Of a stretch of DNA of 64,000 bases, positions 1,593 to 19,782 are shown piece after piece; position 1 is the stretch's first letter; each line of letters starts with the position of its first letter. The notes below the pieces were generated by a model. That model had not been told where the DNA came from. It saw nothing but the letters and a program-made list of their open reading frames with translations, and made no database searches. The stretch is from Bacillota bacterium (GTDB lineage: Bacteria > Bacillota > Syntrophomonadia > Syntrophomonadales > DTU052), in the NCBI GenBank assembly GCA_029781825.1, contig JAKOVY010000032.1, positions 23,438 to 87,437 on the forward strand. Reading direction: 5' to 3'. The translations under genes and the position numbers were made by a program.

Positions 1593-3716
1593 ATGAACAT
1601 TCTTGAAAACTTGAACGGGGCCCAGATTGAGGCGGTGACGCACCGTGAGGGACCCTGCCTGGTTCTGGCTGGAGCCGGAAGCGGGAAGACCAGGGTATTA
1701 ACCAGGCGGGTGGCTTACCTGGTGGAGCAGGGGGTATCCCCTCATCAGATCATGGCCATAACCTTTACCAATAAGGCGGCTCAGGAGATGAAGGAGCGGG
1801 TTATGGAACTGGTCCCCAGCTTCAACGGACAATGGATCCGGACTTTTCACTCCGCCTCTTTCCAGATCCTGCGCATGGAGATCGAGAAACTTGGGTTCCG
1901 CAAAGGATTTACCATCCTGGATGAGGGCGAGCAGAAGACGGTTATCAAAGAATGCCTGCGCGAGCTGCAGCAGCATGATACCAGGCCCGAGTTGATATCA
2001 TATTTGATCAAGCAGGCCAAGAACAGCCTGACTGAACCGGAGCAGTTCTTTGCTGGAATCAAGGCGGCTCCTCATCACCGCGATCTTTATACCCGGATTT
2101 ACCGGCTGTACAGCAGCCGCCTGCGGGAGTTGAACGCTCTTGATTTTGAGGACTTGATCGGGCTGACGGTCAGGCTTTTCCGCGAGTATCCGGCTGTTCT
2201 GCAGTCCTATCAGGAAAGGTTTCCTTACGTGATGGTCGATGAGTACCAGGACACCAATTATGCGCAGTTTGTATGGACCAAACTCCTGGCCGGTGAAAAC
2301 GGTAACGTGTTTGTGGTGGGGGACCCTGACCAGTCCATTTACAGCTGGCGGGGTGCCGAACCCTACAATATCGATAGATTTCTTGACACCTACCCTCAGG
2401 CCAAAGTGATCAAGCTGGAAAAGAACTACCGTTCCACCCGGTACATCCTGGAGGCCGCCAACGCCGTCATCCATAACAACACCGGGCGTATGAAAAAGGA
2501 GCTTTACACCGATAATCCCCGGGGAGAGAAACTGCTGCAGTTCGGTGCTGCCAGCCACCAGCAGGAGGCGGAGTTCATCGCCCAGTATATCAAGCAGTTG
2601 GTCAATGAGGGGAAATATCGGTACCAGGATTTTGCCATCTTTTACCGGGTTCACGCCCAGTCGAGGCCCATTGAGGAAGCCCTGAACCGCAATTTCATTC
2701 CCTACCGGATTGTGGGGGCCAAAAAGTTCTACCAGCGCAAGGAGATAAAGGATATCCTGGCTTATCTGAGGCTGGTTGCGAATCCCTCCGACCGGATGAG
2801 CTTCAGGAGAGCCATCAATGCGCCCCGCCGCGGTATTGGGGAAGTTACTATCCAAAAGCTGGAGGACCTGAGCACTGCCAGCATGAAACCCATTGTGGTG
2901 ACCCTGGGAAACATCAAAGAATTGAAAGGACTGTCCTCCAAAATTAAGAATGCCCTGCAGGAGTTTTACGGAATGATAACCTACCTGCAGGAACTCCAAT
3001 CTCAGGTTTCCCTGGCCCAACTCCTGGAGGAAACCTTGAAGCTCAGCGGATACGTTGAGGACCTGAAAACCAACCATCCTCTGGAAGCGGAAGAGCGAAT
3101 AGAAAACCTGCAGGAGTTGAAATCCCTGATGGTGGAGTTCGAAAGAGAAGGGCAGCGGGACCTGGCCGACTTCTTGACCGAGGTAGCCCTCCTGCAGGAA
3201 GCTGATGAGATTGACTATTCGGATGCGGTCATGATGATGACCCTTCATGGAGCCAAAGGCCTGGAATACCCGGTAGTCTTCATGACCGGCATGGAGGAAG
3301 GCATTTTCCCCTCCTACCGCGCTGAGACCCATGAGGAGATGGAAGAGGAGCGCCGGCTTTGTTATGTGGGAATAACCAGAGCCCGGGAGAGGCTCATTAT
3401 GAGCCGGGCAGTCAGACGCATCATGTATGGGGTCGACCGCGCCAATATGCCCAGTCGGTTCTTAAAGGAGATACCCAGCGATCTCTTTGTTCCCTTTAAT
3501 CTGCAGGGAGGTAAGATCAACCTGGTTCCGTCGAAGGTGGAAGGCCGGGTGAGCAACCTCCGAGAAGGTGACCTGGTGCAGCACCAGAAATTTGGACGAG
3601 GTATGGTGACCAAGGTGATGGCAGATGATATTGCTGTGGTGGACTTTGAGGAGTCAGGGATAAAGACGCTCAACACCTACATGGCACCTATGGTGAAACT
3701 GGTCCAGGAGGTTTAA
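1593..3716 (+). CDS. pcrA: ATP-dependent DNA helicase, UvrD/PcrA family
   Basis: GAGSGKTRVLTRR Walker A, VDEYQDTNYAQF, VVGDPDQSIYSWRGA, TLHGAKGLEYPVVF motifs; adjacent to ligA. Confidence 0.95.
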   Translation: MNILENLNGAQIEAVTHREGPCLVLAGAGSGKTRVLTRRVAYLVEQGVSPHQIMAITFTNKAAQEMKERVMELVPSFNGQWIRTFHSASFQILRMEIEKLGFRKGFTILDEGEQKTVIKECLRELQQHDTRPELISYLIKQAKNSLTEPEQFFAGIKAAPHHRDLYTRIYRLYSSRLRELNALDFEDLIGLTVRLFREYPAVLQSYQERFPYVMVDEYQDTNYAQFVWTKLLAGENGNVFVVGDPDQSIYSWRGAEPYNIDRFLDTYPQAKVIKLEKNYRSTRYILEAANAVIHNNTGRMKKELYTDNPRGEKLLQFGAASHQQEAEFIAQYIKQLVNEGKYRYQDFAIFYRVHAQSRPIEEALNRNFIPYRIVGAKKFYQRKEIKDILAYLRLVANPSDRMSFRRAINAPRRGIGEVTIQKLEDLSTASMKPIVVTLGNIKELKGLSSKIKNALQEFYGMITYLQELQSQVSLAQLLEETLKLSGYVEDLKTNHPLEAEERIENLQELKSLMVEFEREGQRDLADFLTEVALLQEADEIDYSDAVMMMTLHGAKGLEYPVVFMTGMEEGIFPSYRAETHEEMEEERRLCYVGITRARERLIMSRAVRRIMYGVDRANMPSRFLKEIPSDLFVPFNLQGGKINLVPSKVEGRVSNLREGDLVQHQKFGRGMVTKVMADDIAVVDFEESGIKTLNTYMAPMVKLVQEV

Positions 3717-5708
<1,992 letters not shown>

Positions 5709-5865: not shown

Positions 5866-6150
5866 TTGGCTCTTACGATTGAGGAAGTGGAACACGTTGC
5901 CCGTTTGGCTCGGTTAAGCCTGACAACTGCAGAAAAAGAAATGTATGCCCAGCAGCTCAGTTCGATTCTCGATTTTTTTGCGATGCTTAACCGCCTTCCC
6001 ACCGACGGGGTTGAACCGTTGGCCCACGTCCTTCCGCTTTTCAATGTTATGCGAGAAGACGAGGTCGGGCCTTCGCTGCCCCGGGATGAGGCTATAGCCA
6101 ACGCCGCTATCACTGAGGATGGGCAGTTCAAAGTACCGAGGATAGTTTAA
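5866..6150 (+). CDS. gatC: Glu/Asp-tRNA amidotransferase subunit C, copy 1 (TTG start)
   Basis: GatC-type sequence ([28 protein letters not shown]) directly upstream of gatA. Confidence 0.92.
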
Positions 6151-6161
6151 GGAGGACACCC

Positions 6162-7613
6162 TTGGAACTCTACCAGTATACTGTTCAGGAAATCGGAGAA
6201 ATGCTGGCGCGGCGGGAAATCAGTGCCAGGGAAGTCCTGGCCTCGTCAGCCGAGCGCATCGCCCGGGTTGAGAGCAAAATCCAGGCGTTCATAACTCTTA
6301 CCCTGGATGAGGCCGAGAAGACAGCAAGAGACCTGGATGCCCGGGATAAGATGGGGGGACTCGCGGGAATCCCCTGCGGCATCAAGGACAACCTTTGTAC
6401 CCGGGGAATCAGAACCACCTGTGCTTCGGAGATGCTGGAAAATTTCGTGCCTCCCTATGATGCCACGGTGGTGAAAAGACTTAAAGACGCCGGAGCGGTG
6501 ATGGTCGGCAAGTTGAATATGGATGAGTTCGCTATGGGATCCTCTACTGAGAACTCCGGATTTTTCCCCACCCACAATCCCTGGGACCTGACCCGGGTTC
6601 CGGGAGGGTCCTCGGGCGGAGCCGCCGCAGCCGTAGCGGCCGGAGAGGTTTATTATGCGCTGGCATCGGATACCGGCGGTTCCATAAGGCAGCCCGCTTC
6701 GTTCTGCGGGGTTGTGGGGATGAAGCCTACCTATGGACTGGTATCACGGTTCGGCCTGGTGGCCTTCGCCTCTTCCCTGGATCAGGTGGGCCCGATAACC
6801 AGGACGGTGACCGACTGTGCTCTGGTTATGAACGCCATCTGCGGCCATGACAGCATGGATTCCACCAGCCTGAAGGTTCCGGTTCCGGATTATACAGAAG
6901 ACATTCAGAAAGGGATCAAAGGCTTAAAGGTAGGTTATCCCCGGGAGTACTTCCAGGAAGGAGTGGACTGGGGAGTCAGAGATACCATAATGAAGGCTCT
7001 CCTTAAGTTTGAAGAACTGGGGGCGGTGGTGGAAGAGACCAGCCTCCCCCACAGCGAGTATGCGCTCCCGACTTATTACATCATTGCTCCATCCGAAGCC
7101 AGCTCCAACCTGGCTCGCTTCGACGGGGTAAGGTACGGCTACCGTGACGGGAACGCCCAGGATACGGTGGAGATGTTCAGCAGCACCCGGGCCCGGGGAT
7201 TCGGCCCCGAGGTTGTACGACGGGTGATGCTTGGGACCTATGCCTTGAGTTCCGGGTACTACGACGCCTACTACCTGAAGGCCCTAAAGGTGCGGCGTCT
7301 GATTAAGGAAGATTTCGACCGGGCGTTCGAGCGGTATGATATTCTGGTTTCTCCCACAACTACCTCGACTGCCTTCCGGATCGGCGAGAAGGCCGAGGAC
7401 CCTCTGACCATGTATATGTCGGATATGCTGACCATACCGGTGAACCTGGCAGGGATTCCTTCCATCTCGATCCCCGGGGGTTTTCTGGATAACCTGCCGG
7501 TGGGGCTGCAGCTCATGGGCCCTCCCCTGTCGGAAGTGACTCTTCTCAAGGCGGCCTATGCCTTCGAACAGGCTGCCGGTTACCACCTGCGCACACCCGT
7601 ACTGGAGGTATAA
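6162..7613 (+). CDS. gatA: Glu/Asp-tRNA amidotransferase subunit A, copy 1, with intact catalytic Lys
   Basis: Amidase signature [24 protein letters not shown]; catalytic Lys in GIKDN (codon 75, 6384-6386). Confidence 0.97.
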
Positions 7614-7617
7614 ATAC

Positions 7618-9069
7618 ATGATAAACGCCGAATATGAGGCCGTTATCGGACTGGAAGTGCATGTTGAACTCAAGACCAGGTCCAAGGCCTTTTGCAGATG
7701 CGCCACCTCTTTCGGGGCTCAACCAAACACCCATGTATGCCCCATCTGTCTGGGAATGCCCGGGGTCTTGCCGGTTCTGAACCGGCAGATGGTGGAATTT
7801 GCACTGATGACTGCTCTGGCCTTAAAGTGCCGGCTGGCTGACTACTGCAAATTTGACCGAAAAAACTACTTCTACCCCGACCTGCCCAAGAACTACCAGA
7901 TTTCCCAGTATGACATGCCGATAGCCACCGGGGGCAGTCTGGTGATAGAAACCGAGAACGGCCCGCGAACTGTCGGCATCAACCGGGTGCATATGGAAGA
8001 GGATGCCGGGAAACTGGTTCACAAGGGCAGCATAATGACGACTCCCTATTCCCTGGTGGATCTGAACCGGGCCGGCACCCCCCTGCTGGAGATTGTATCC
8101 GAGCCTGATTTGCGTTCCCCCGCGGAAGCGCGGATGTATTTGGAACAGCTTCGTCTGATTCTTCTCTATCTGGGGGTATCCGACTGTAAGATGGAGGAGG
8201 GTTCCCTGCGCTGCGATGCCAACATTTCCGTAAGACCGAAGGGGCAGCGGCAACTGGGGACCAAGACGGAAATAAAGAACCTAAACTCATTCCGGGCCCT
8301 GGAGCGGGCCCTGGATTATGAGATCACGCGGCAGATCAAAGCCCTGGCCAAAGGTGAGCGTATAATTCAGGAGACCAGGACCTGGGATGAAGAAGAGCAG
8401 GTCACCATGAGCATGCGCTCCAAGGAGGAAGCCCATGACTACCGTTACTTCCCGGACCCGGACCTGCCTCCTTTACATATAGACCAGGCATGGGTGGAAA
8501 GGGTGTTCAAGAGCCTTCCCGAACTCCCCGAGCAGGCCCGCCGACGCCTGACGGAGGAATACCGCCTGAGTCGTTATGATGCCATTCTGCTCACCGCATC
8601 CAAGGATATCCTGGATTTCTTTGATGATTGTGTTGCTCGGTACCCCAAACCCAAGGTGGTTGCCAACTGGATCAACGGCGACCTGGCTCGGCTTCTGAAT
8701 CAGAGCAAGCTGGAGATCAGGGAAAGCAAGGTAACGCCTGCATTGCTGGTCGGTCTCTTCAGGCTTTTGGATGAGGGGACCATAAGCGGGAAAATCGCCA
8801 AAGCGGTATTGGAGGAGATGTTTAACACCGGTGAGCCCCCGGATAAGATTGTGAAGGAGCGGGGTCTGGTACAGATCACAGATGAGTCGGCCCTGCAAGC
8901 CTTGGTAAGAGAGGTTATTAACGAAAACCCCACGGTGGTGGATGACTATAAAAACGGAAAGGATAAGGCCCTGGGATTCCTGGTGGGTCAGGTTATGAAG
9001 GCCAGCAAAGGCAAAGCCAATCCGGAAGCGGTCAACCGACTCCTCAAGGAAGAGCTATCCCGCCGGTAA
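7618..9069 (+). CDS. gatB: Glu/Asp-tRNA amidotransferase subunit B, copy 1
   Basis: [48 protein letters not shown] at 7618 follows GGAGGT. Confidence 0.96.
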
Positions 9070-9201: not shown

Positions 9202-11757
9202 TTATTTGAACAGTGAACAGAAAGCGTCGATGACAACCGGATCGAACTGGGTCCCGGACTTGCGTTTCAATTCTTCCAGGGCCTCTTTCTCGCTGATGGA
9301 CTTCCGGTAAACCCTGTCGGTGGTCATGGCGTCGAACGCATCCACCACAGCGAGGATTCTGGATATCAGCGGAATTTCCTCTCCTTTCAACCCCCGGGGG
9401 TAGCCTTCACCATTCCAGTGTTCGTGATGAGAAAGAATGTATTCCGCTATAATCGATAGTTCGGGTGAGTTTTGGGCAATACGATAGCCGATTTCAGAGT
9501 GCCTTTTCATTTCCTCCCACTCACTTGGGGAGAGCGGACCGGGTTTTTGCAGTATGCTTTCCCTTACGGCTACCTTGCCGATATCGTGCAGCATGGCCAA
9601 AAGGGTCAAATTGTCAAGTTCATGCGGTGACAGCTTTAACATTCTGCCAACCAGGTTACAGTAATGCTCCAGCCGTTTGGCGTGTTCCTCGGTCTCCATG
9701 CTCTTCTCGAAAAGCGTTCCCAGGAGGGTGTTGATAATGGTGTTGCGGTGGCTTCTTCCCTCCAAAAGCTTGCGGTGATACATCCGTTCCTCGGCTTCCT
9801 TAATGATTTGCACCAGGCTTTCGTCCTGACTGGTCTTTACCGCACAGCCCAGCGAAACGTTCAGGCTCATATCCCCGACGGATTTGTCACGACAGCGGGC
9901 GGTTATCCTTTCCATTATCTCCTGTGCCTGTTCCGCTGTGGTGCAGGGCAGCATGATGAGAAACTCGTCTCCGCCCCAGCGAGCAATAATATCGCCGGGG
10001 CGGCAGCTCTCCTGCAATACCTCGGCCATGCTTTTCAAAAGTTCATCCCCCGCCTGGTGGCCAAACACATCATTGGTGAGTTTAAGACCGTTTACATCAC
10101 CCATGATCACCGCCAGCGGCAGTTGGAACGAGTTGTCCAGCCGCATCATTTCTTCTTCGATGAACCTGCGATTGTAAAGACCGGTGAGGTGATCGTGATA
10201 ACTGAGATAAAGGATTTGCTGCTGGTGTTCTTTTTCGATGCTGACATCGCGGAAAACCATTACTACACCAAATGTCTGCCCGTGCTCGTCCTTTATCGGG
10301 GCGGCACTGTCCGCGATCGGTATCGTACGTCCTTCTTTATTAATCAATACGGTGTGATTGGCTACACTGACAATGCTTCCAGTCTGCAGAGCTTTGGAGA
10401 TTGGATCTTCAATTTCTTGACCTGTTTCTTCATTCCGGAGTAAAAAAACATCGGTGAAATACCGATTTTTTGCTTCTTCGTTGGTCCAGCCCGTGATTTT
10501 TTCGGCTTCTCTGTTCAAAGCAGTTATCCTGCCTTCCAGATCGGTTGTAACCACCCCATCACCAATAGAAATGAGGGTGGTGCGCATCAATTCCTTTTCG
10601 CGATACAGGTGTTCTTTGTATTTCTCCCTATCGGTCACATCGAAAATGATGGAAAACATCAGGGGCTCTCCGTCCTGCTGCTCAATAAGGCTGGTATAAA
10701 CATCTACCAGCCTTATCTCACCGTTTTTCAAGCGGTGTGGAGTAATGAAATACCGCTGTTTTTCCCTTAACGCCATCAGGCGCAACTGTTCCACTTCTTC
10801 GTTGGGGAGCATGTTGATGTCCTGAATGCAGAGAGAGGTTAATTCCTCGCGGGAATAACCGTAAAAATCGCAGGCAGCAGGGTTGCTATCTACTATCCGG
10901 CCGGTTATTGGTTCAATCAAGAGCATGACGGCGGTATGTTCATAAAACATGCTCTCGAGGCGTCGCAGAAGTTGATTTCTTTCCCTTTCAGCCCGCTTTT
11001 GCTGGGTGATGTCCTTACAGAAACCAACCAGATACTGTACCTTTCCCTGCTCAAACACCGGTGTGAGGGTAGTCAGCCGAATCTTTTCCCCGGTAGGGAA
11101 GAAGAAGTTGTCCTCGTAAGTATGGGCTTTTCCCTCATTAACACATCGCCGGTAATTCTCAATCGATATCTTTGCGGCTTCTTCACCGAATATGTCTACC
11201 GGAGTTTTTCCTTTTATATCGGTTAGTCCCGTCAATTTCTGATGGGCTGCATTGTTTCTTATGTAACGGAACTCGCCATTTTTTACTTCTACCAAGAATA
11301 TTGCATCATGAGTGCTGTTAAAAATGATCTCCAGGTCCCTAAAGAGCGATTCTATTCTTGCCTTCTGGTGTTCCAGGAGCTTCATGTTTTCTACTTCCGA
11401 CGTGATATCCTGGAAGATTGCTGTACAAAACCCTCTTTCCTGCGAAAAGGCCGTAATTCGATACCAACGTCCCAAACAATCAAAATAGCTAGTAAACTCC
11501 TGCTTTTGTCCAGTTTGGGATATGTCGCCATAAAAAGTGATCCAATCAAAATCGGAGGACCTTATTTCGGGAATGATTTCAGTCACTCTTTTCCCCAGTA
11601 TCGTTTCCCGGTTTAACTTGGTAATCGTTTCAAAGAAGGGATTTACATCGCGAAATATCATGTCAATTGCCTTGTTTTGATCATCGAACACCAATTGATA
11701 ATGAACGTAACCAAAGGGTGCCAACCTGAGAAGCTCGACAGCAGAAGCCGACGTCAT
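9202..11757 (-). CDS. Multi-PAS GGDEF/HD-GYP domain protein (cyclic-di-GMP signalling)
   Basis: RWGGDEFLIML (GGDEF), HDIGK and HHEHWNGEGYP (HD-GYP), several PAS domains; ATG at 11757 preceded by GAGGGGGG on the minus strand. Confidence 0.92.
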   Translation of the reverse strand: MTSASAVELLRLAPFGYVHYQLVFDDQNKAIDMIFRDVNPFFETITKLNRETILGKRVTEIIPEIRSSDFDWITFYGDISQTGQKQEFTSYFDCLGRWYRITAFSQERGFCTAIFQDITSEVENMKLLEHQKARIESLFRDLEIIFNSTHDAIFLVEVKNGEFRYIRNNAAHQKLTGLTDIKGKTPVDIFGEEAAKISIENYRRCVNEGKAHTYEDNFFFPTGEKIRLTTLTPVFEQGKVQYLVGFCKDITQQKRAERERNQLLRRLESMFYEHTAVMLLIEPITGRIVDSNPAACDFYGYSREELTSLCIQDINMLPNEEVEQLRLMALREKQRYFITPHRLKNGEIRLVDVYTSLIEQQDGEPLMFSIIFDVTDREKYKEHLYREKELMRTTLISIGDGVVTTDLEGRITALNREAEKITGWTNEEAKNRYFTDVFLLRNEETGQEIEDPISKALQTGSIVSVANHTVLINKEGRTIPIADSAAPIKDEHGQTFGVVMVFRDVSIEKEHQQQILYLSYHDHLTGLYNRRFIEEEMMRLDNSFQLPLAVIMGDVNGLKLTNDVFGHQAGDELLKSMAEVLQESCRPGDIIARWGGDEFLIMLPCTTAEQAQEIMERITARCRDKSVGDMSLNVSLGCAVKTSQDESLVQIIKEAEERMYHRKLLEGRSHRNTIINTLLGTLFEKSMETEEHAKRLEHYCNLVGRMLKLSPHELDNLTLLAMLHDIGKVAVRESILQKPGPLSPSEWEEMKRHSEIGYRIAQNSPELSIIAEYILSHHEHWNGEGYPRGLKGEEIPLISRILAVVDAFDAMTTDRVYRKSISEKEALEELKRKSGTQFDPVVIDAFCSLFK

Positions 11758-12029
11758 AAACAACCCCCCTCCCGAATTATCAACTTGCCAGACAACCAAA
11801 AAAAGGCCAGGTTTGACATGATTTTATTAAATGCGATGATAAATGGCAATAATGGCTTTGATGTTCTGTTATCTCGATCTGCACCCTGTATCCAAGTCCT
11901 CTGCCCCATATTTTGAAGATGCTCACTGTTATCCTATCCCGGAGGGCTTTTTCACTAGATTCTAGCAACCGGTTTGGCCTTTCTGATATAATACTGTGCA
12001 TGAAGATTCGGGAAAGGGAGGAAAGGCCG

Positions 12030-12314
12030 TTGGCTTTAACCGAAAAAGATGTTGAACGCCTGGCCGTTTTGGCTCGGATAAACCTAACTGCAGAAGAGAA
12101 GGAAACATTCGCCCGGCAGATGAATTCGATCCTGGATTCCGCTGCCGTGCTTGATGAACTGTCAACCGACCGGATAGAGCCGCTCATTTATGTCCTTTCT
12201 CGGCATAACGTGATGCGGGATGATAAGGTGCGTCCCTCCCTGACCAATAATGAAGCTCTGGCCAATGCCCCCCTTAAAGAGGATGCTATGTTCAAGGTGC
12301 CGAGATTAATATAA
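12030..12314 (+). CDS. gatC: GatC paralog, copy 2 (TTG start)
   Basis: LALTEKDVERLAVLARINLTAEEKETFARQMNSILD aligns to GatC copy 1; RBS GGGAGGAAAGG upstream of TTG. Confidence 0.88.
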   Translation: MALTEKDVERLAVLARINLTAEEKETFARQMNSILDSAAVLDELSTDRIEPLIYVLSRHNVMRDDKVRPSLTNNEALANAPLKEDAMFKVPRLI

Positions 12315-12327
12315 GGAGGAACCCCTG

Positions 12328-13764
12328 GTGAATCTCTACCAGTTAACCGTTCATAAAGCAGCAGAAATGTTGGCCCGACGGGAGATTAACGCCCAGGATA
12401 TTTTGGAATCCGTCTCCCGGCGGATTGACCTGGTTGAAGACAAGATCAAAGCCTTCATTACTCTTACCCTGACCCGGGCGGAAAAGGATGCAAAGGACCT
12501 TGACAGCCGTAGTGAAATCACGGGTCTTGCAGGAATCCCCTGTGGTGTGCAGGACAACCTCTGTACCAGGGGAGTAGCAACCACCTGTGCTTCGAAGATG
12601 CTGGAAGGCTTTGTTCCCCCATACGACGCCACGGCAGTTGGCAGGCTGAAGGCGGCGGGTGCCGTAATGGTGGGCAAGCTGAACATGGATGAGTTCGGTA
12701 TGGGGTGCTGTACCCAAAAGTCGGGCTTCCATCCCACGAGCAACCCCTGGGATCCAACCCGGGTTTCCGGCGGTTCCTCCGGGGGAGCAGCGGCTGCGGT
12801 AGCGGCCGGAGAGGTGTATTACGCCCTGGCTTCGGATACCGGCGGCAGTCTGAGACAGTCGGCCGCCTACTGTGGAGTGGTGGGGATGAGACCCACCTAC
12901 GGCCGGGTTTCCCGTTACGGCCTGGTAGCCGTAGCTTCATCGATGGATCAGGTGGGCCCGGTGACCAGAAACGTAACCGACTGTGCTCTGGTGCTGAACG
13001 TCATCTGTGGTTACGATGCTCTTGATTCCAACTGCCTGCAGGCGGAGGTGCCGGATTACCGGAATTACCTGGGAAGCAGCCTGAAAGGTATGAGGATTGG
13101 GTTCCCCCGCGAGTATTTTCAGGAGAACGTAGACGGACCCGTTAGAGATGCGGTAAAGAAAGCCCTTTTAAAATTTGAAGATCTGGGAGCCGTGGTGGAA
13201 GAGACCAGCCTTCCCCACAGCAGGTATGCCCTCCCCGTTTTCCGGTTGCTGGCATCGGCCGAAGCGAGCTCCAACATGTCCCGCTATGATGGCGTGAGGT
13301 ACGGTTACCGAGACGAAGAGGCTGAGGACATCGCAGAGATGATGAGCAGTTCTCGCGGTCGGGGCTTCGGACCTGAAGTGAAGCGCAACATACTGCTGGG
13401 AACTTATGTCCTGAGCAAGGAACAGTTTGATGATTACTATATGCGGGCTATGAAAGTACGGCGCCTGATCAAGGAAGACTTTGACCGGGCTTTTAAAAAA
13501 TATGATCTTCTGGTTTCGCCGGCTACGGTTGGGGTTGCTTTTCCCCGCGGTGAAAGGGATGAAGACCTGTCAGACATGCTCACCATACCGGCCAGCCTGG
13601 CCGGCATCCCGGCCATGTGCATCCCCGGGGGGATGGTAGACGGTCTGCCGGTGGGATTGCAGCTGATGGGTCCGGCGCTGGCGGAAGGAACGCTGCTTAA
13701 GGCCGCCTATGCCTTTGAGCAGGCTACAGATTACCATTTGCGCACACCCGTACTGGAGGTATAG
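12328..13764 (+). CDS. gatA: GatA paralog, copy 2; amidase-signature Ser residues kept but catalytic Lys replaced by Gln
   Basis: Full-length alignment to GatA copy 1; GIPCGVQDNLCTRG has CAG at 12550-12552 where copy 1 has AAG. Confidence 0.9.
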   Translation: MNLYQLTVHKAAEMLARREINAQDILESVSRRIDLVEDKIKAFITLTLTRAEKDAKDLDSRSEITGLAGIPCGVQDNLCTRGVATTCASKMLEGFVPPYDATAVGRLKAAGAVMVGKLNMDEFGMGCCTQKSGFHPTSNPWDPTRVSGGSSGGAAAAVAAGEVYYALASDTGGSLRQSAAYCGVVGMRPTYGRVSRYGLVAVASSMDQVGPVTRNVTDCALVLNVICGYDALDSNCLQAEVPDYRNYLGSSLKGMRIGFPREYFQENVDGPVRDAVKKALLKFEDLGAVVEETSLPHSRYALPVFRLLASAEASSNMSRYDGVRYGYRDEEAEDIAEMMSSSRGRGFGPEVKRNILLGTYVLSKEQFDDYYMRAMKVRRLIKEDFDRAFKKYDLLVSPATVGVAFPRGERDEDLSDMLTIPASLAGIPAMCIPGGMVDGLPVGLQLMGPALAEGTLLKAAYAFEQATDYHLRTPVLEV

Positions 13765-13767
13765 ATC

Positions 13768-15216
13768 ATGACTGATAAATATGAAGCGGTAATAGGCCTG
13801 GAAGTGCACGTGGAACTGAAAACCAACACCAAGGCCTTCTGCGGCTGTGGACTTTCCTTTGGAGCTTTGCCCAACAGCCATGTATGTCCCGGCTGCCTGG
13901 GGATGCCCGGTGCCATACCGGTTCTTAACCGGGGACTGGTGGAGTACGCGATAAAAACGGGCCTGGCCTTGAACTGCAAAATCGCCGAGTACTGCCGGTT
14001 TGACCGTAAAAACTATTTTTACCCGGATCTGCCGGCGAACTACCAGATATCTCAACTCGATCTTCCCATTGCCAGTGCGGGGTACCTGGAGATTGAAGTC
14101 GAAGGGGAAAAGAAAAAGATCGGCATCAACCGGGTGCACATGGAAGAGGATGCAGGAAAGCTGGTGCATCAAGGCAGTATAATGACAACCCCCTATTCCC
14201 TGGTAGATTTGAACCGGGCGGGAACGCCGCTGCTGGAAATTGTCTCCGAGCCCGATATCAGGTCTCCTCGGGAAGCCTATCTGTATATGCAAAAACTGCG
14301 CTCGATCCTTTTGTTCCTTGGAGTTTCGGACTGCAAAATGGAAGAGGGGTCCCTGCGCTGTGACGCCAACGTATCGGTCAGACCTCGAGGCCAGGAAAAA
14401 TTGGGAACCAGGACCGAGATAAAGAATCTAAACTCCTTCCGTTCACTGGAACGGGCTGTGGATTACGAAATCAAGCGGCATATCGAGGTCCTGGAGGACG
14501 GTGGGGAACTGGTTCAGGAAACCCGCACCTGGGATGAGGACCGGCAGATCACCCTAAGCATGCGCTCCAAGGAAGAGGCTCAGGATTACAGGTACTTCCC
14601 GGATCCCGACCTGCCCCCCGTTATAATTGACCGGGAATGGATAGAAAATGTCCGCAAGACCCTGCCGGAACTTCCGGATCAGGCCCGCGAGCGCTTGATG
14701 ACCCGGCATAACCTGTCGTCGTATGATGCCAACATCCTTACTATGTCCAAGGATGTCCTGGACTTCTTCGATGCCTGTGTTGCCGAGTACAACGAACCCA
14801 AGTTGATTGCCAACTGGATTATGGGAGAACTGACCAGACTGCTAAACCAGAACAACATGGAGATCAAGGAGTGCAAGATTACTCCTTCATCCCTGGTGGA
14901 AATGCTGAGGCTTTTGGAACAGGGGACCATAAGCGGCAAGATTGCCAAAGTAGTCTTTGAAGAGATGTTCAACACCGGGGATGCGCCGGAGAAGATCGTG
15001 AAAGACCGGGGGCTGGTACAGATCTCGGATGAATCGGCCATAAAAGCGATAGTGGATGAAGTTATTGCCGGCAATCCAAAGGTAGTGGAGGATTATAAGA
15101 ACGGCAAAGGCAAGGCCCTCGGGTTCCTGGTGGGTCAGGTTATGAAAGCCAGCAAGGGCAAAGCCAACCCGGAAGTGGTCAACCGGCTCCTGATGGAGGA
15201 GCTGTCTCGCCCCTAA
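13768..15216 (+). CDS. gatB: GatB paralog, copy 2
   Basis: [45 protein letters not shown] retained. Confidence 0.93.
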
Positions 15217-15489: not shown

Positions 15490-16662
15490 TTGCCGATCAC
15501 TTCTACTGGAAAAGAATGGTTTTTGGAGGAGGGGGCCAAAGTCTATATTGTTGACACCACCTTGCGTGACGGGGAGCAGACCGCCGGAGTGGTTTTTTCC
15601 AATGAGGAAAAGATTCGGATCGCCAGGTATCTCGATGAGCTGGGGGTTGATCAGATCGAGGCCGGTATCCCGGTGATGGGCGGCGATGAAAAGAAGTGCA
15701 TCCGCGAAATTGTTGACATGGGCCTGAAAGCCAGCATTATGGCTTGGAATCGCGCGGTAATCAACGATATTAAAGAATCAATTGATTGCGGTGTTGATGC
15801 GGTTGCCATATCCATCTCGGCTTCGGATCTTCATATAGAGTATAAGCTGCAGACCACCCGGGAGGATGTCCTCAGGCGCATGGCGGACGCGGTCAAGTTT
15901 GCCAAGGACAAGGGGCTTTATGTATCAGTTAATGCCGAGGATGCTTCCCGTGCTCATATGGATTTTCTGGTCGAGTTTGCTCTCACTGCCAAACACTGCG
16001 GAGCCGATCGTCTCCGCTTCTGCGATACGGTGGGCATTCTTGATCCCCTGACCACTTACCGCAAGATCACCACGCTGGTCAACTCCGTGGGATTGGACAT
16101 AGAGATGCACACCCACAACGATTTCGGGCTGGCAACAGCCAATTCCCTGGCCGGGGTCTATGCCGGTGCCAGATATGTGGGGGTAACCATAAACGGTCTG
16201 GGAGAAAGAGCCGGAAACGCTTCCCTGCAGGAAGTGGTTATGGGATTAAAGCACCTTATGAAACTGGACTTAAGATTTAAGACCGAAATGTTCCGTGAAG
16301 TGGCGGAGTACGTGGCCAAGGCTTCAGGAAGAACCCTGTCTCCGGCTCATCCCATCGTGGGTACCAACATTTTTGCCCATGAATCCGGAATCCACGGTGA
16401 CGGGGTGCTGAAGAACCCCATGAACTATGAAGCCTTTTCGCCCCAGGAGGTGGGGCTGGAACGCCAAATCGTTATCGGCAAGCATTCGGGAACTAACGCG
16501 TTAAAAGCCAAGTTTATCGAGTATGAGATAGAACTCACCGACGAGCAGGCCAAGGATCTGCTGGCGTTGGTCAGAGCCAAGGCGATTGAACTGAAAAGGC
16601 CGCTGTTTGATAAAGAACTGGCAGCATTATATGAAACTTACATGAAGGGGAGAGAAAAGTAA
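15490..16662 (+). CDS. NifV/homocitrate synthase-like enzyme; candidate Re-citrate synthase
   Basis: DTTLRDGEQTAGVVFS, HTHNDFGLATANSLAG, NGLGERAGNASLQEV; operon with aconitase-like and IDH genes. Confidence 0.85.
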   Translation: MPITSTGKEWFLEEGAKVYIVDTTLRDGEQTAGVVFSNEEKIRIARYLDELGVDQIEAGIPVMGGDEKKCIREIVDMGLKASIMAWNRAVINDIKESIDCGVDAVAISISASDLHIEYKLQTTREDVLRRMADAVKFAKDKGLYVSVNAEDASRAHMDFLVEFALTAKHCGADRLRFCDTVGILDPLTTYRKITTLVNSVGLDIEMHTHNDFGLATANSLAGVYAGARYVGVTINGLGERAGNASLQEVVMGLKHLMKLDLRFKTEMFREVAEYVAKASGRTLSPAHPIVGTNIFAHESGIHGDGVLKNPMNYEAFSPQEVGLERQIVIGKHSGTNALKAKFIEYEIELTDEQAKDLLALVRAKAIELKRPLFDKELAALYETYMKGREK

Positions 16663-17919
16663 TTGGGCAAGACAATCGCGGAAAAAATCCTGTCTATGAA
16701 GTCGGGTGTTGATGCCCGTGCCAACGACATTGTTATCGCCGATCTTGATTTTGTGATGGGGCAGGACGGGACCTCCCCCCTGGCCATACAGGCTTTTACC
16801 GAGATGGGAGGTCTTCGGGTTTTCGACCCCCGACGGGTGGCCATGGTCATTGATCACAGTGCTCCCAGCCCCCTGGAAGGGGTTTCTGCTCTCCATAAGA
16901 AGATGCGCGATTTTGCGGATCGTTATGGAGTTATGCTTTACGATATCGGGGACGGGGTCTGTCACCAACTGGTTCCGGAGAAGGGGCATGTAGCCCCTGG
17001 AACCCTGGTTATCGGGGCCGACAGCCATACCTGTACCTACGGGGCCCTGAATGCTTTTGCTACCGGGGTCGGTTCCACCGACCTGGCGGCAGGGATGATT
17101 TCCGGGAAGCTGTGGTTCAAGGTTCCCGAAACCTTTAAGTTTGTGCTCCATGGGGAACTGCCTCCGGGAGTGTTCTCCAAGGACCTCATCCTCTATCTTA
17201 TCGGGGATGTTACCGCCGATGGAGCGACTTACATGGCGGCGGAATACGTGGGAGAGGCCATCAGGGCTCTGTCAATGGAGGCTCGGTTTACCATCAGCAA
17301 TATGGCCATCGAGATGGGGGCCAAGGTGGGACTGATGGAGGCCGACGAGAAGACGGAAGCCTGGGTAAGAGAACACTCTTCCCTCCCCTATAATCCCGTA
17401 TTTGCCGATCCTGATGCGGTTTATGCTCAGGTAAGGGAGTATGACGTCAGCAAACTGGAACCTCAGGTGGCCAAGCCTCATACCGTTGACAATGTCTCCC
17501 CCATCGGAGAAGTGGCCGGCATTGAGGTTCAGCAGTGTGTAATCGGTACCTGCACCAACGGCAGGTTGGAAGACCTTCGTATTGCTGCCAAAATCCTGGA
17601 GGGGAAAAAGATTCATCCCCGCACCAGGTTGATTGTAGCCCCGGCTTCCCGTCAGGTTTTCCTGGATGCCATTCGGGAAGGGATTATCACCACCCTGGTG
17701 GAAGCGGGAGCAGCCATAGTCACCCCTGGCTGCGGTCCCTGTGTGGGAACTCACAACGGGGTGCCGTCGGACGGGGAAAATGTGATCGCCACCTCCAACC
17801 GGAACTTCAAGGGCCGCATGGGTAATAACAAGGCCTTCATATACCTGGGGTCACCGGCCACGGTGGCGGCCTCGGCGATTGCCGGGAAAATCAGCGACCC
17901 CAGAGAATACTGGAGGTAG
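16663..17919 (+). CDS. Aconitase/3-isopropylmalate dehydratase family large subunit (TTG start)
   Basis: GADSHTCTYGALNAFATGVGSTD, CVIGTCTNGRLEDLR, PGCGPCVGTHNG iron-sulfur ligand motifs. Confidence 0.93.
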   Translation: MGKTIAEKILSMKSGVDARANDIVIADLDFVMGQDGTSPLAIQAFTEMGGLRVFDPRRVAMVIDHSAPSPLEGVSALHKKMRDFADRYGVMLYDIGDGVCHQLVPEKGHVAPGTLVIGADSHTCTYGALNAFATGVGSTDLAAGMISGKLWFKVPETFKFVLHGELPPGVFSKDLILYLIGDVTADGATYMAAEYVGEAIRALSMEARFTISNMAIEMGAKVGLMEADEKTEAWVREHSSLPYNPVFADPDAVYAQVREYDVSKLEPQVAKPHTVDNVSPIGEVAGIEVQQCVIGTCTNGRLEDLRIAAKILEGKKIHPRTRLIVAPASRQVFLDAIREGIITTLVEAGAAIVTPGCGPCVGTHNGVPSDGENVIATSNRNFKGRMGNNKAFIYLGSPATVAASAIAGKISDPREYWR

Positions 17920-17929
17920 GTGAATAACA

Positions 17930-18430
17930 ATGAATTTCAGAGGCAAAGCTCACAAATTCGGCGATGATGTGAACACGGATTATATCATCTCAGGGCGCTA
18001 TAAGTTTAAGACCCTGGATATGAAGGAACTGGCCAAACACGTAATGGAAGACCTGGACCCCGATTTTTACTCCAAGCTTAACAAGGGTGACTTCATTGTC
18101 GCCGGCAAGAATTTTGGCTGCGGTTCCTCCAGAGAGCAGGCACCCCTGGCGATAATCAATGCCGATATCAGTGCGGTTATTGCCAAGTCCTTTGCCAGGA
18201 TTTTTTACCGCAATGCCATCAATACCGGTTTGCCGCTCCTGGAATGCGATACGGATCTGATAAACCCGGGAGATGAGCTGGAGGTCGATCTGGGCCGGGG
18301 AATAATACGAAACCTCACCCAGGATACGGAAATAAAAGTAACACCGCTGCCGCCCGTTATGCTGAAGATACTGTCCGAAGGCGGGCTGGTTGAGCACTTC
18401 AAAAAGCATGGAACCTTCAATTTGGAATAA
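17930..18430 (+). CDS. Aconitase/3-isopropylmalate dehydratase family small subunit
   Basis: DDVNTDYIISGRYKF and GKNFGCGSSREQAPLAI motifs. Confidence 0.94.
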   Translation: MNFRGKAHKFGDDVNTDYIISGRYKFKTLDMKELAKHVMEDLDPDFYSKLNKGDFIVAGKNFGCGSSREQAPLAIINADISAVIAKSFARIFYRNAINTGLPLLECDTDLINPGDELEVDLGRGIIRNLTQDTEIKVTPLPPVMLKILSEGGLVEHFKKHGTFNLE

Positions 18431-18450
18431 ACAGGTTGTGCAAACAGGGT

Positions 18451-18477
18451 GAAGCCGGGGGAATCTCCCCGGGCTTC
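18451..18477 (+). other. Intra-operon hairpin upstream of isocitrate dehydrogenase
   Basis: GAAGCC-GGGGGAATCTCCCCG-GGCTTC inverted repeat. Confidence 0.5.
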
Positions 18478-18504
18478 AAACATAATAAGCTGGAGGGCTG
18501 AAAC

Positions 18505-19782
18505 TTGGCATCGACAACGAATGGGCAGAGAATACAGATTGAAGACAATCAACTCAAGGTTCCCGACCACCCGGTAATTCCTTTCATTGAGGGCGATGGC
18601 ACCGGGCCCGATATTTGGGCAGCGGCTTCCCGAGTTTTGGACGCGGCCGTTGCCAAGGCTTATGGGGGCAAGAGGTCAATCGTCTGGAAGGAGGTCTTGG
18701 CCGGGGAAAAGGCCTTCAAAGAGACCGGAAGCTGGTTGCCGGATGAGACCCTGGAAACGATCCGGCATTACCTGGTTGCCATTAAGGGTCCTCTTACCAC
18801 CCCGGTGGGCGGCGGCATCCGTTCCCTCAATGTGGCCCTGCGGCAGGAGCTTGACCTGTATGCCTGCGTCCGCCCGGTTCGCTGGTTTAAAGGGGTTCCT
18901 TCCCCGGTGAAAAGGCCGTGGGACACGGATATGGTTATTTTCAGGGAGAATACCGAGGATATCTATGCCGGTATCGAATACCCCATGGGATCGGATGAGG
19001 TAAAAAAGCTCCTGAGATTCCTGCGCGAAGAAATGAAAGTCGACAAAATCAGATTTCCCAAAACTTCCGGCCTCGGCATCAAGCCGGTGTCCGAAGAAGG
19101 TTCCAAACGGCTGGTGCGGGCCGCCATACGGTATGCCATCAAGGAAGGTCGAAAGAGTGTAACCCTGGTTCACAAAGGCAACATCATGAAGTTTACCGAA
19201 GGAGCCTTCAAGCAGTGGGGTTACGAGGTGGCGGAGGAGGAATTCGGCGACATAGTTTTCACCTGGAACCAGTATGATCGCATCAAGGAAGAAAAGGGTG
19301 AGGATGCTGCCAACCAGGCCCAGAGGGAAGCCGAGGCCGAAGGCAGGATCATCGTCAAGGATGTTATTGCCGATATCTTCCTGCAGCAGATATTGACCCG
19401 GCCGCGGGAGTTCTCGGTGGTAGCGACCATGAATCTAAACGGCGACTATATCTCCGATGCCCTGGCCGCTCAGGTAGGGGGCATTGGCATAGCGCCGGGT
19501 GCCAACATCAATTACGAGACCGGTCACGCCATTTTTGAGGCCACTCACGGCACCGCTCCCAAATACGCCGGGCTCGACAAGGTAAATCCCTCCTCGGTGA
19601 TACTGTCGGGAGAGATGATGCTCCGCTATCTGGGTTGGGACGAAGCCGCTGCGCTGATAATCACAGCCCTGGAACGGACTATCGACCAGAAGATTGTGAC
19701 CTATGACTTTGCCCGCCTGATGGAAGGGGCCACCGAGGTCAAGTGCTCGCAGTTCGCAGATGAACTGATTAAGAATATGTAA
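18505..19782 (+). CDS. icd: Isocitrate dehydrogenase, NADP-type family (TTG start)
   Basis: [54 protein letters not shown]. Confidence 0.95.

Follow-up and report, generated by a model that had tools for sequence, protein, structure and literature searches.

Two gatCAB sets at one locus

The window, which is the whole stretch of 64,000 nucleotides analyzed here (G000:C132:23438-87437), comes from a bacterium related to Syntrophothermus and carries two gatCAB sets, at 5866-9069 and 12030-15216, with all reading frames open. The first follows pcrA (1593-3716) and ligA (3720-5708) and comprises, on the forward strand, gatC1 (5866..6150, an open reading frame recognized by comparison with GatC2), gatA1 (6162..7613; TIGR00132, 653 bits; triad Lys-cisSer-Ser intact) and gatB1 (7618..9069, from motifs and sequence comparison). 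The initial annotation had described a second complete gatC-gatA-gatB set downstream of the canonical one, as we found, and had placed its start at 11997. As there is no start codon at that position, gatC2 most likely begins at the TTG at 12030, with GGGAGG upstream, giving 94 residues as for gatC1 (12030..12314, forward strand; above the TIGR00135 cut-off). On the same strand follow gatA2 (12328..13764, GTG start, 478 residues; TIGR00132, 556 bits for a cut-off of 481), predicted to encode a glutaminase-dead GatA paralogue, and gatB2 (13768..15216, 482 residues; above the NF004012 and TIGR00133 cut-offs), encoding the kinase/transamidase subunit. Encoded together and each above a curated NCBIfam cut-off, GatC2, GatA2 and GatB2 belong to the GatCAB sequence family. 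GatC2 is 55% identical to GatC1, and GatA2 69-70% identical to GatA1. In gene order, length and overall sequence, GatCAB2 resembles bacterial GatCAB (TIGR00132/00133/00135; S. aureus 2df4, A. aeolicus 3h0l), with which it shares the GatB and GatC motifs and both GatA serines; it differs by a GatA without the catalytic lysine and the arginine for the glutamine carboxylate, and with a remodelled glutamine pocket.

A PAS-GGDEF-HD gene (9202-11799, reverse strand) lies between the two sets; it stands upstream of gatC1 in the related genome G001 (L038 1194-3758), and the locus of G002, G003 and G004 is without it, a distribution that looks like insertion or relocation. Downstream of gatCAB2 lie genes for a nifV-like synthase, aconitase-family large and small subunits and an NADP isocitrate dehydrogenase (15490-19782). 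The same genes are found 3' of gatCAB2 in all four species of the genus and 3' of the single gatCAB of G004. They might form a Re-citrate synthase route to 2-oxoglutarate, a guess from gene order; the annotation is homocitrate synthase. Control of gatCAB2 by a T-box or another RNA element was rejected, since an Rfam scan of the window found no such element there and matched a single tRNA. Promoter and terminator scans remained at chance level.

The genome of the window encodes GlnRS, GluRS, AspRS and AsnRS (NCBIfam equivalogs above cut-off). An AsnB-type synthase is present in G000, G001 and G004 and was not found in G002 and G003; AsnA was not found in any of the five genomes. Because G002 and G003 lack a detected AsnB-type synthase, they may make asparagine through GatCAB, as has been suggested for Bdellovibrio (PMC4206432). 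The AspRS signature proved unreliable as a test of a non-discriminating enzyme, the motif being RRDHGG in the genus of the window and RRDLGG in Caldicoprobacter, where no AsnRS was found.

Losses in GatA2 and selection on the subunits

Read directly from the sequence, residue 75 is Lys in GatA1 (AAG, 6384-6386) and Gln in GatA2 (CAG, 12550..12552), as initially annotated. Amidase-signature enzymes use a Ser-cisSer-Lys triad, of which the lysine is the general base. Alignment with S. aureus GatA (2df4; phmmer and MAFFT), a check that had been proposed, placed residue 75 of GatA2 on Lys79. The CAG is a true base call, with the same Gln in the orthologues of two other species from independent assemblies. 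Both serine motifs are kept in GatA2, as had been claimed (cis-Ser S154 and nucleophile S178), and the other quoted changes around the active site, in RQPA and from SSGYYDAYY to SKEQFDDYY, were confirmed as written. In S. aureus numbering, GatA2 carries K79Q, I179L, P182S and S368K-G369E-Y370Q, together with losses that the initial annotation did not mention: R358N (residue 354, codon 13387..13389, forward strand), F206V, Y309F, Y310R, A128G, P151S and a 5-residue deletion before D425. In yeast GatA, whose triad is K52-S130-S154, R334 holds the glutamine carboxyl (PMC4027206); this arginine would be the equivalent of S. aureus R358 and of residue 354 of GatA2. Since both this arginine and the catalytic lysine are lost, glutamine binding and catalysis should both be gone from GatA2. 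The earlier proposal that copy 2 cannot hydrolyze glutamine normally is thus well supported by the sequence, with both losses fixed in three species. We also counted changes at the 163 GatA positions that never vary in 25 examined relatives with one normal GatA: 20 are changed in GatA2 of the window and 18 and 16 in its two orthologues, versus 4-7 in GatA1. A model of GatA2 by AlphaFold2, built on an alignment of 7 rows, had a mean pLDDT of 45 and was set aside; the clustering of the changes in the pocket therefore rests on alignment to known motifs and not on coordinates.

We compared the four genomes found for the genus, that of the window, G001, G002 (Syntrophothermus sp. DTU052, L077) and G003 (Syntrophomonadaceae AS07pgkLD_164, L078), with G004 from the sister genus. 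Copy 2 is open and conserved in all four species. The copies of G002 and G003 share K75Q, R354N and P178S (GatA2 numbering) with GatA2 of the window, so that glutamine replaces the lysine that glutamine-dependent GatCAB requires, and Asn its arginine, in all three; the three also share A128G, P182S, F206V, Y309F and Y310R (S. aureus numbering), and P151 is likewise changed. G001 copy 2 keeps the lysine, the arginine and RQPA, yet already has Y309F, Y310Q, SKDS and the 5-residue deletion. G004 has a single gatCAB in the same place (pcrA-ligA-gatCAB-nifV-like-aconitase-idh). Read most simply, these sequences reflect a tandem duplication at the native site, after which the pocket was remodelled and the lysine and arginine were then lost; a stepwise loss is indicated because G001 copy 2 retains both residues but has Y309F and Y310Q. 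In the GatA tree, G001 copy 2 branches with strong support before the three lysine-less copies. The single G004 GatA falls beside copy 2 (97/89) and its GatB weakly beside copy 1 (86/69), so that the two trees do not agree on the exact timing of the duplication. Horizontal transfer of copy 2 was rejected, the tandem duplication being nested among family members, and a sequencing error or pseudogene was rejected by the independent assemblies and by dN/dS.

Selection acts differently on the subunits of the two sets. Among G000, G002 and G003, pairwise dN/dS was 0.083-0.098 for GatA1 and 0.180-0.192 for GatA2, versus 0.127-0.217 for GatB1 and 0.095-0.102 for GatB2. On summed changes, GatA1 was tighter than GatA2 (Fisher p=0.001) and GatB2 tighter than GatB1 (p=0.007), and the contrast for GatC over the three species was not significant; these count tests assume independent changes in three species and are indicative only. 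Hence GatA2 is under relaxed yet purifying selection, copy 2 is no pseudogene, and GatB2 is the better kept of the two transamidase subunits. At 183 invariant GatB positions, 9-10 are changed in GatB2 and 12-19 in GatB1. The initial annotation credited GatB2 with HMEEDAGKL and other kinase-type motifs, which understates the case: all its GatB motifs, including the catalytic ones and four Zn cysteines, are intact. The catalytic motifs of GatB1 are intact in G000 and G003. In G002, GatB1 (L035 7092-8540) shows conserved-motif changes (EEDTGK, VSDG, RFLMGQAMKASGG), as if the copy-1 GatB were decaying there.

Triad-less GatAs in other Clostridia

A degenerate-DNA scan of contigs from 85,488 species (genome_contigs) with the motif L-x-G-I-P-x-(A/G)-(I/V)-(Q/E)-D-N gave 15 stretches. 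GatAs account for 7 of them, with two in this genus and five in other Clostridia. Motif-scan matches at L065, L066, L069, L070, L072, L075, L076, L079, L172, L173 and L175 were discarded as not GatA. With relatives from a protein search, the five other GatAs fall into two types (triad-less loci of Caldicoprobacter oshimai and related Clostridia: L068, L073, L067, L071, L074, L154-L156). The first, in Caldicoprobacter oshimai and relatives (G062, G064, G074, G077, G080 and G082), carries S154A, F or T together with K79E, the latter not observed in G080, where the copy is truncated. Except in G077, these genomes also yielded a further gatA that has the lysine (L134 in G080), and neither GlnRS nor AsnRS was detected in any of the six, synthetases outside G000 being named by domain and length only. 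In the second type (G061, G063, G065 and G067), the only GatA among the sequences found, in possibly incomplete genomes, has K79Q/E, S154A/G and S178C, unlike in the genus of the window, where a second GatA exists. These four genomes encode two tRNA-synt_1c proteins of GlnRS and GluRS size and an AsnRS-like protein, again by domain and length, and G061 additionally an AsnA-like protein. The GatBs of these operons keep their catalytic motifs, with dN/dS of 0.04-0.07. A further lineage, G455, has gatC, gatA (K79Q) and gatB together. A broader motif was rare in the class of G061, with matches in 11 of 392 genomes, 8 of them GatA.

Like GatA2, the GatAs of Caldicoprobacter oshimai and its relatives replace K79 by Q or E within a gatCAB operon, have an intact GatB and are changed at A128 and P151; they differ by an independent origin and by the loss of S154 and, in one group, of S178. 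A phylogeny had been suggested to see whether lysine-less GatAs form a clade linked to specific neighbours. On the first set, an AU test rejected one clade of triad-less GatAs (p=5e-6), so a single origin of all of them is rejected, and well-supported GatA branches force at least two changes to the triad-less state; no neighbour gene common to the lineages pointed to another substrate. Loss of the glutaminase thus appears, from the sequences, to recur independently with more of the triad gone, which adds to the evidence that copy 2 would not hydrolyze glutamine. The changed positions of GatA2 of the window overlap those of the Caldicoprobacter type at 8 sites versus 3.1 expected (p=0.003; p=0.009 without Lys75), and those of the normal Caldicoprobacter copy at 2 versus 2.0 expected.

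For the two types in Caldicoprobacter and its relatives, the trees neither establish nor reject a common origin. Both adjoin a similar gene for a peptidoglycan-binding amidase with a long coiled coil (L068 4746-7898; L087 7824-9710), and this shared neighbour suggests that the two types of loci are orthologous. The lysine-bearing GatA of G074 (L153 3704-5110) misses about 20 residues around the nucleophile Ser178, through an assembly error or a real loss. In G077 (L155 3368-6580), the only GatA found is triad-less, and neither GlnRS nor AsnRS was detected. A normal gatA may be missing from the assembly; otherwise this organism charges tRNA(Gln) and tRNA(Asn) without a GatA glutaminase.

Possible amide transfer by GatCAB2

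Loss of the glutaminase with retention of GatB points to a role other than routine glutamine-dependent charging. There is a good possibility, short of a probability, that GatCAB2 is a glutaminase-dead, GatB-competent amidotransferase using free ammonia. The sequences indicate that, after the tandem duplication at the native site, GatA2 lost glutamine binding and hydrolysis and GatB2 and GatC2 stayed under purifying selection; GatA2 is presumably kept as a structural partner that GatB requires. On misacylated Asp-tRNA(Asn) and/or Glu-tRNA(Gln), GatB2 would still phosphorylate the carboxylate of the side chain, and free ammonia taken from solution, instead of that generated by GatA, would act as nucleophile. 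GatCAB2 would in this way be an isoenzyme of the glutamine-dependent GatCAB1 that depends on ammonia and spares glutamine.

This mechanism appears the most economical, with a close precedent in carbamoyl phosphate synthetase (CPS) I. Vertebrate CPS I, which uses free ammonia with an inactive glutaminase domain, and Alcolapia CPS III keep a glutaminase part that is inactive or weakened beside a conserved synthetase part (PMC4655335, PMC7657897), and on sequence GatCAB2 has the same combination of an inactivated glutaminase site and a conserved synthetase site. The folds and the reaction are unrelated, and ammonia use is proven there whereas it is inferred for GatCAB2. GatFAB with a disturbed glutaminase site makes better use of NH4Cl (PMC4027206). 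It is this use of NH4Cl and the CPS I pattern that favour ammonia for GatCAB2. In CPS evolution glutamine binding can go before the triad (PMC4655335, PMC7657897), and the order in the genus, pocket first and lysine later, matches that path and supports the ammonia reading. Moreover, in the four genomes where no other GatA was found, any activity of GatB must do without a GatA glutaminase; as GlnRS- and AsnRS-like proteins also exist in them, these genomes do not call for an amidotransferase. In the genus of the window, the presence of GatA1 counts against the use of ammonia, since GatB2 could use GatA1.

The strongest rival in this genus is such a mixed complex, in which GatB2, with GatC2, works with the active glutaminase GatA1, while GatA2 and GatB1 are the decaying halves of the duplication; we consider it rather unlikely. 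The initial annotation passed over this rival, which has to be taken seriously because selection runs in opposite directions on the A and B subunits. It is also favoured by the counts of changed invariant positions, the alterations inside conserved motifs of G002 GatB1 and the adjacency of the two sets, whose subunits may be co-produced. However, the count test assumes independence over three species only, GatA2 is still selected (dN/dS 0.18-0.19), the GatB1 catalytic motifs of G000 and G003 are intact, and mixed complexes do not account for genomes whose sole GatA found is triad-less.

It is also unlikely that GatCAB2 has a different role, needing the GatB fold without amide transfer from glutamine or ammonia. 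It might, for instance, bind or buffer tRNA in a transamidosome, have a regulatory part, or modify some other carboxylate with a different amine. The conserved remodelling of the pocket, which affects the same positions of GatA again in separate lineages, would suit such a role, and so would the four genomes with a sole triad-less GatCAB, where routine charging appears independent of it; yet the GatB residues for the kinase and for tRNA handling are all conserved, and no common neighbour points to another substrate. The earlier proposals of another amine or a non-tRNA substrate accordingly found no direct support, GatB2 including its tRNA-binding tail being if anything more conserved than GatB1, and the earlier interpretation as a whole is partly supported.

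That GatCAB2 is a vestigial copy drifting to loss is improbable: the dN/dS of GatA2 is twice that of GatA1, and with GlnRS and AsnRS present the duplicates are dispensable in principle, but the copy is open in four species with dN/dS of 0.18 for GatA2 and 0.10 for GatB2, and GatB2 is more conserved than the working copy. Continued hydrolysis of glutamine or another amide by GatA2, with Gln75 or another residue in place of the lysine, would be consistent with the two retained serines and is very improbable given the loss of the general base and of the glutamine-carboxylate arginine, and given relatives that go on to lose serines too.

Returning to ammonia-dependent transfer, glutaminase-free GatCABs may, as a possibility that we hold tentatively, form a recurrent, unrecognized class of tRNA amidotransferases of anaerobic Clostridia that depend on ammonia. 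Such a class would have arisen at least twice, through inactivation of GatA after translation had been secured by a second GatCAB or by GlnRS/AsnRS, and would be maintained by selection for making amides on tRNA from free ammonia. GatCAB, its triad and the occurrence of an extra GatCAB in one genome are already known, the last from the duplicated gatCAB of Clostridium acetobutylicum (PMC4206432). In the open-access literature searched, we found no report of a conserved gatCAB whose GatA lacks the catalytic lysine and which recurs in separate clostridial lineages. Since annotation models assign these proteins to GatA with scores over the curated cut-off, databases do not show the loss. Were GatCAB2 to use free ammonia, the amidation of aminoacyl-tRNA would be added to the syntheses of carbamoyl phosphate, NAD and asparagine as a reaction with separate glutamine and ammonia isoenzymes, GatCAB2 and GatCAB1 paralleling CPS I versus CPS II/III and AsnA versus AsnB. 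The loss is relevant, too, to the retention of GatCAB by many bacteria that also have GlnRS and AsnRS, 67 of 547 genera, some of these GatCABs having been called possibly vestigial (PMC4206432). The series from G004 through G001 copy 2 to copy 2 of G003, G000 and G002 provides natural intermediates that are testable stepwise.
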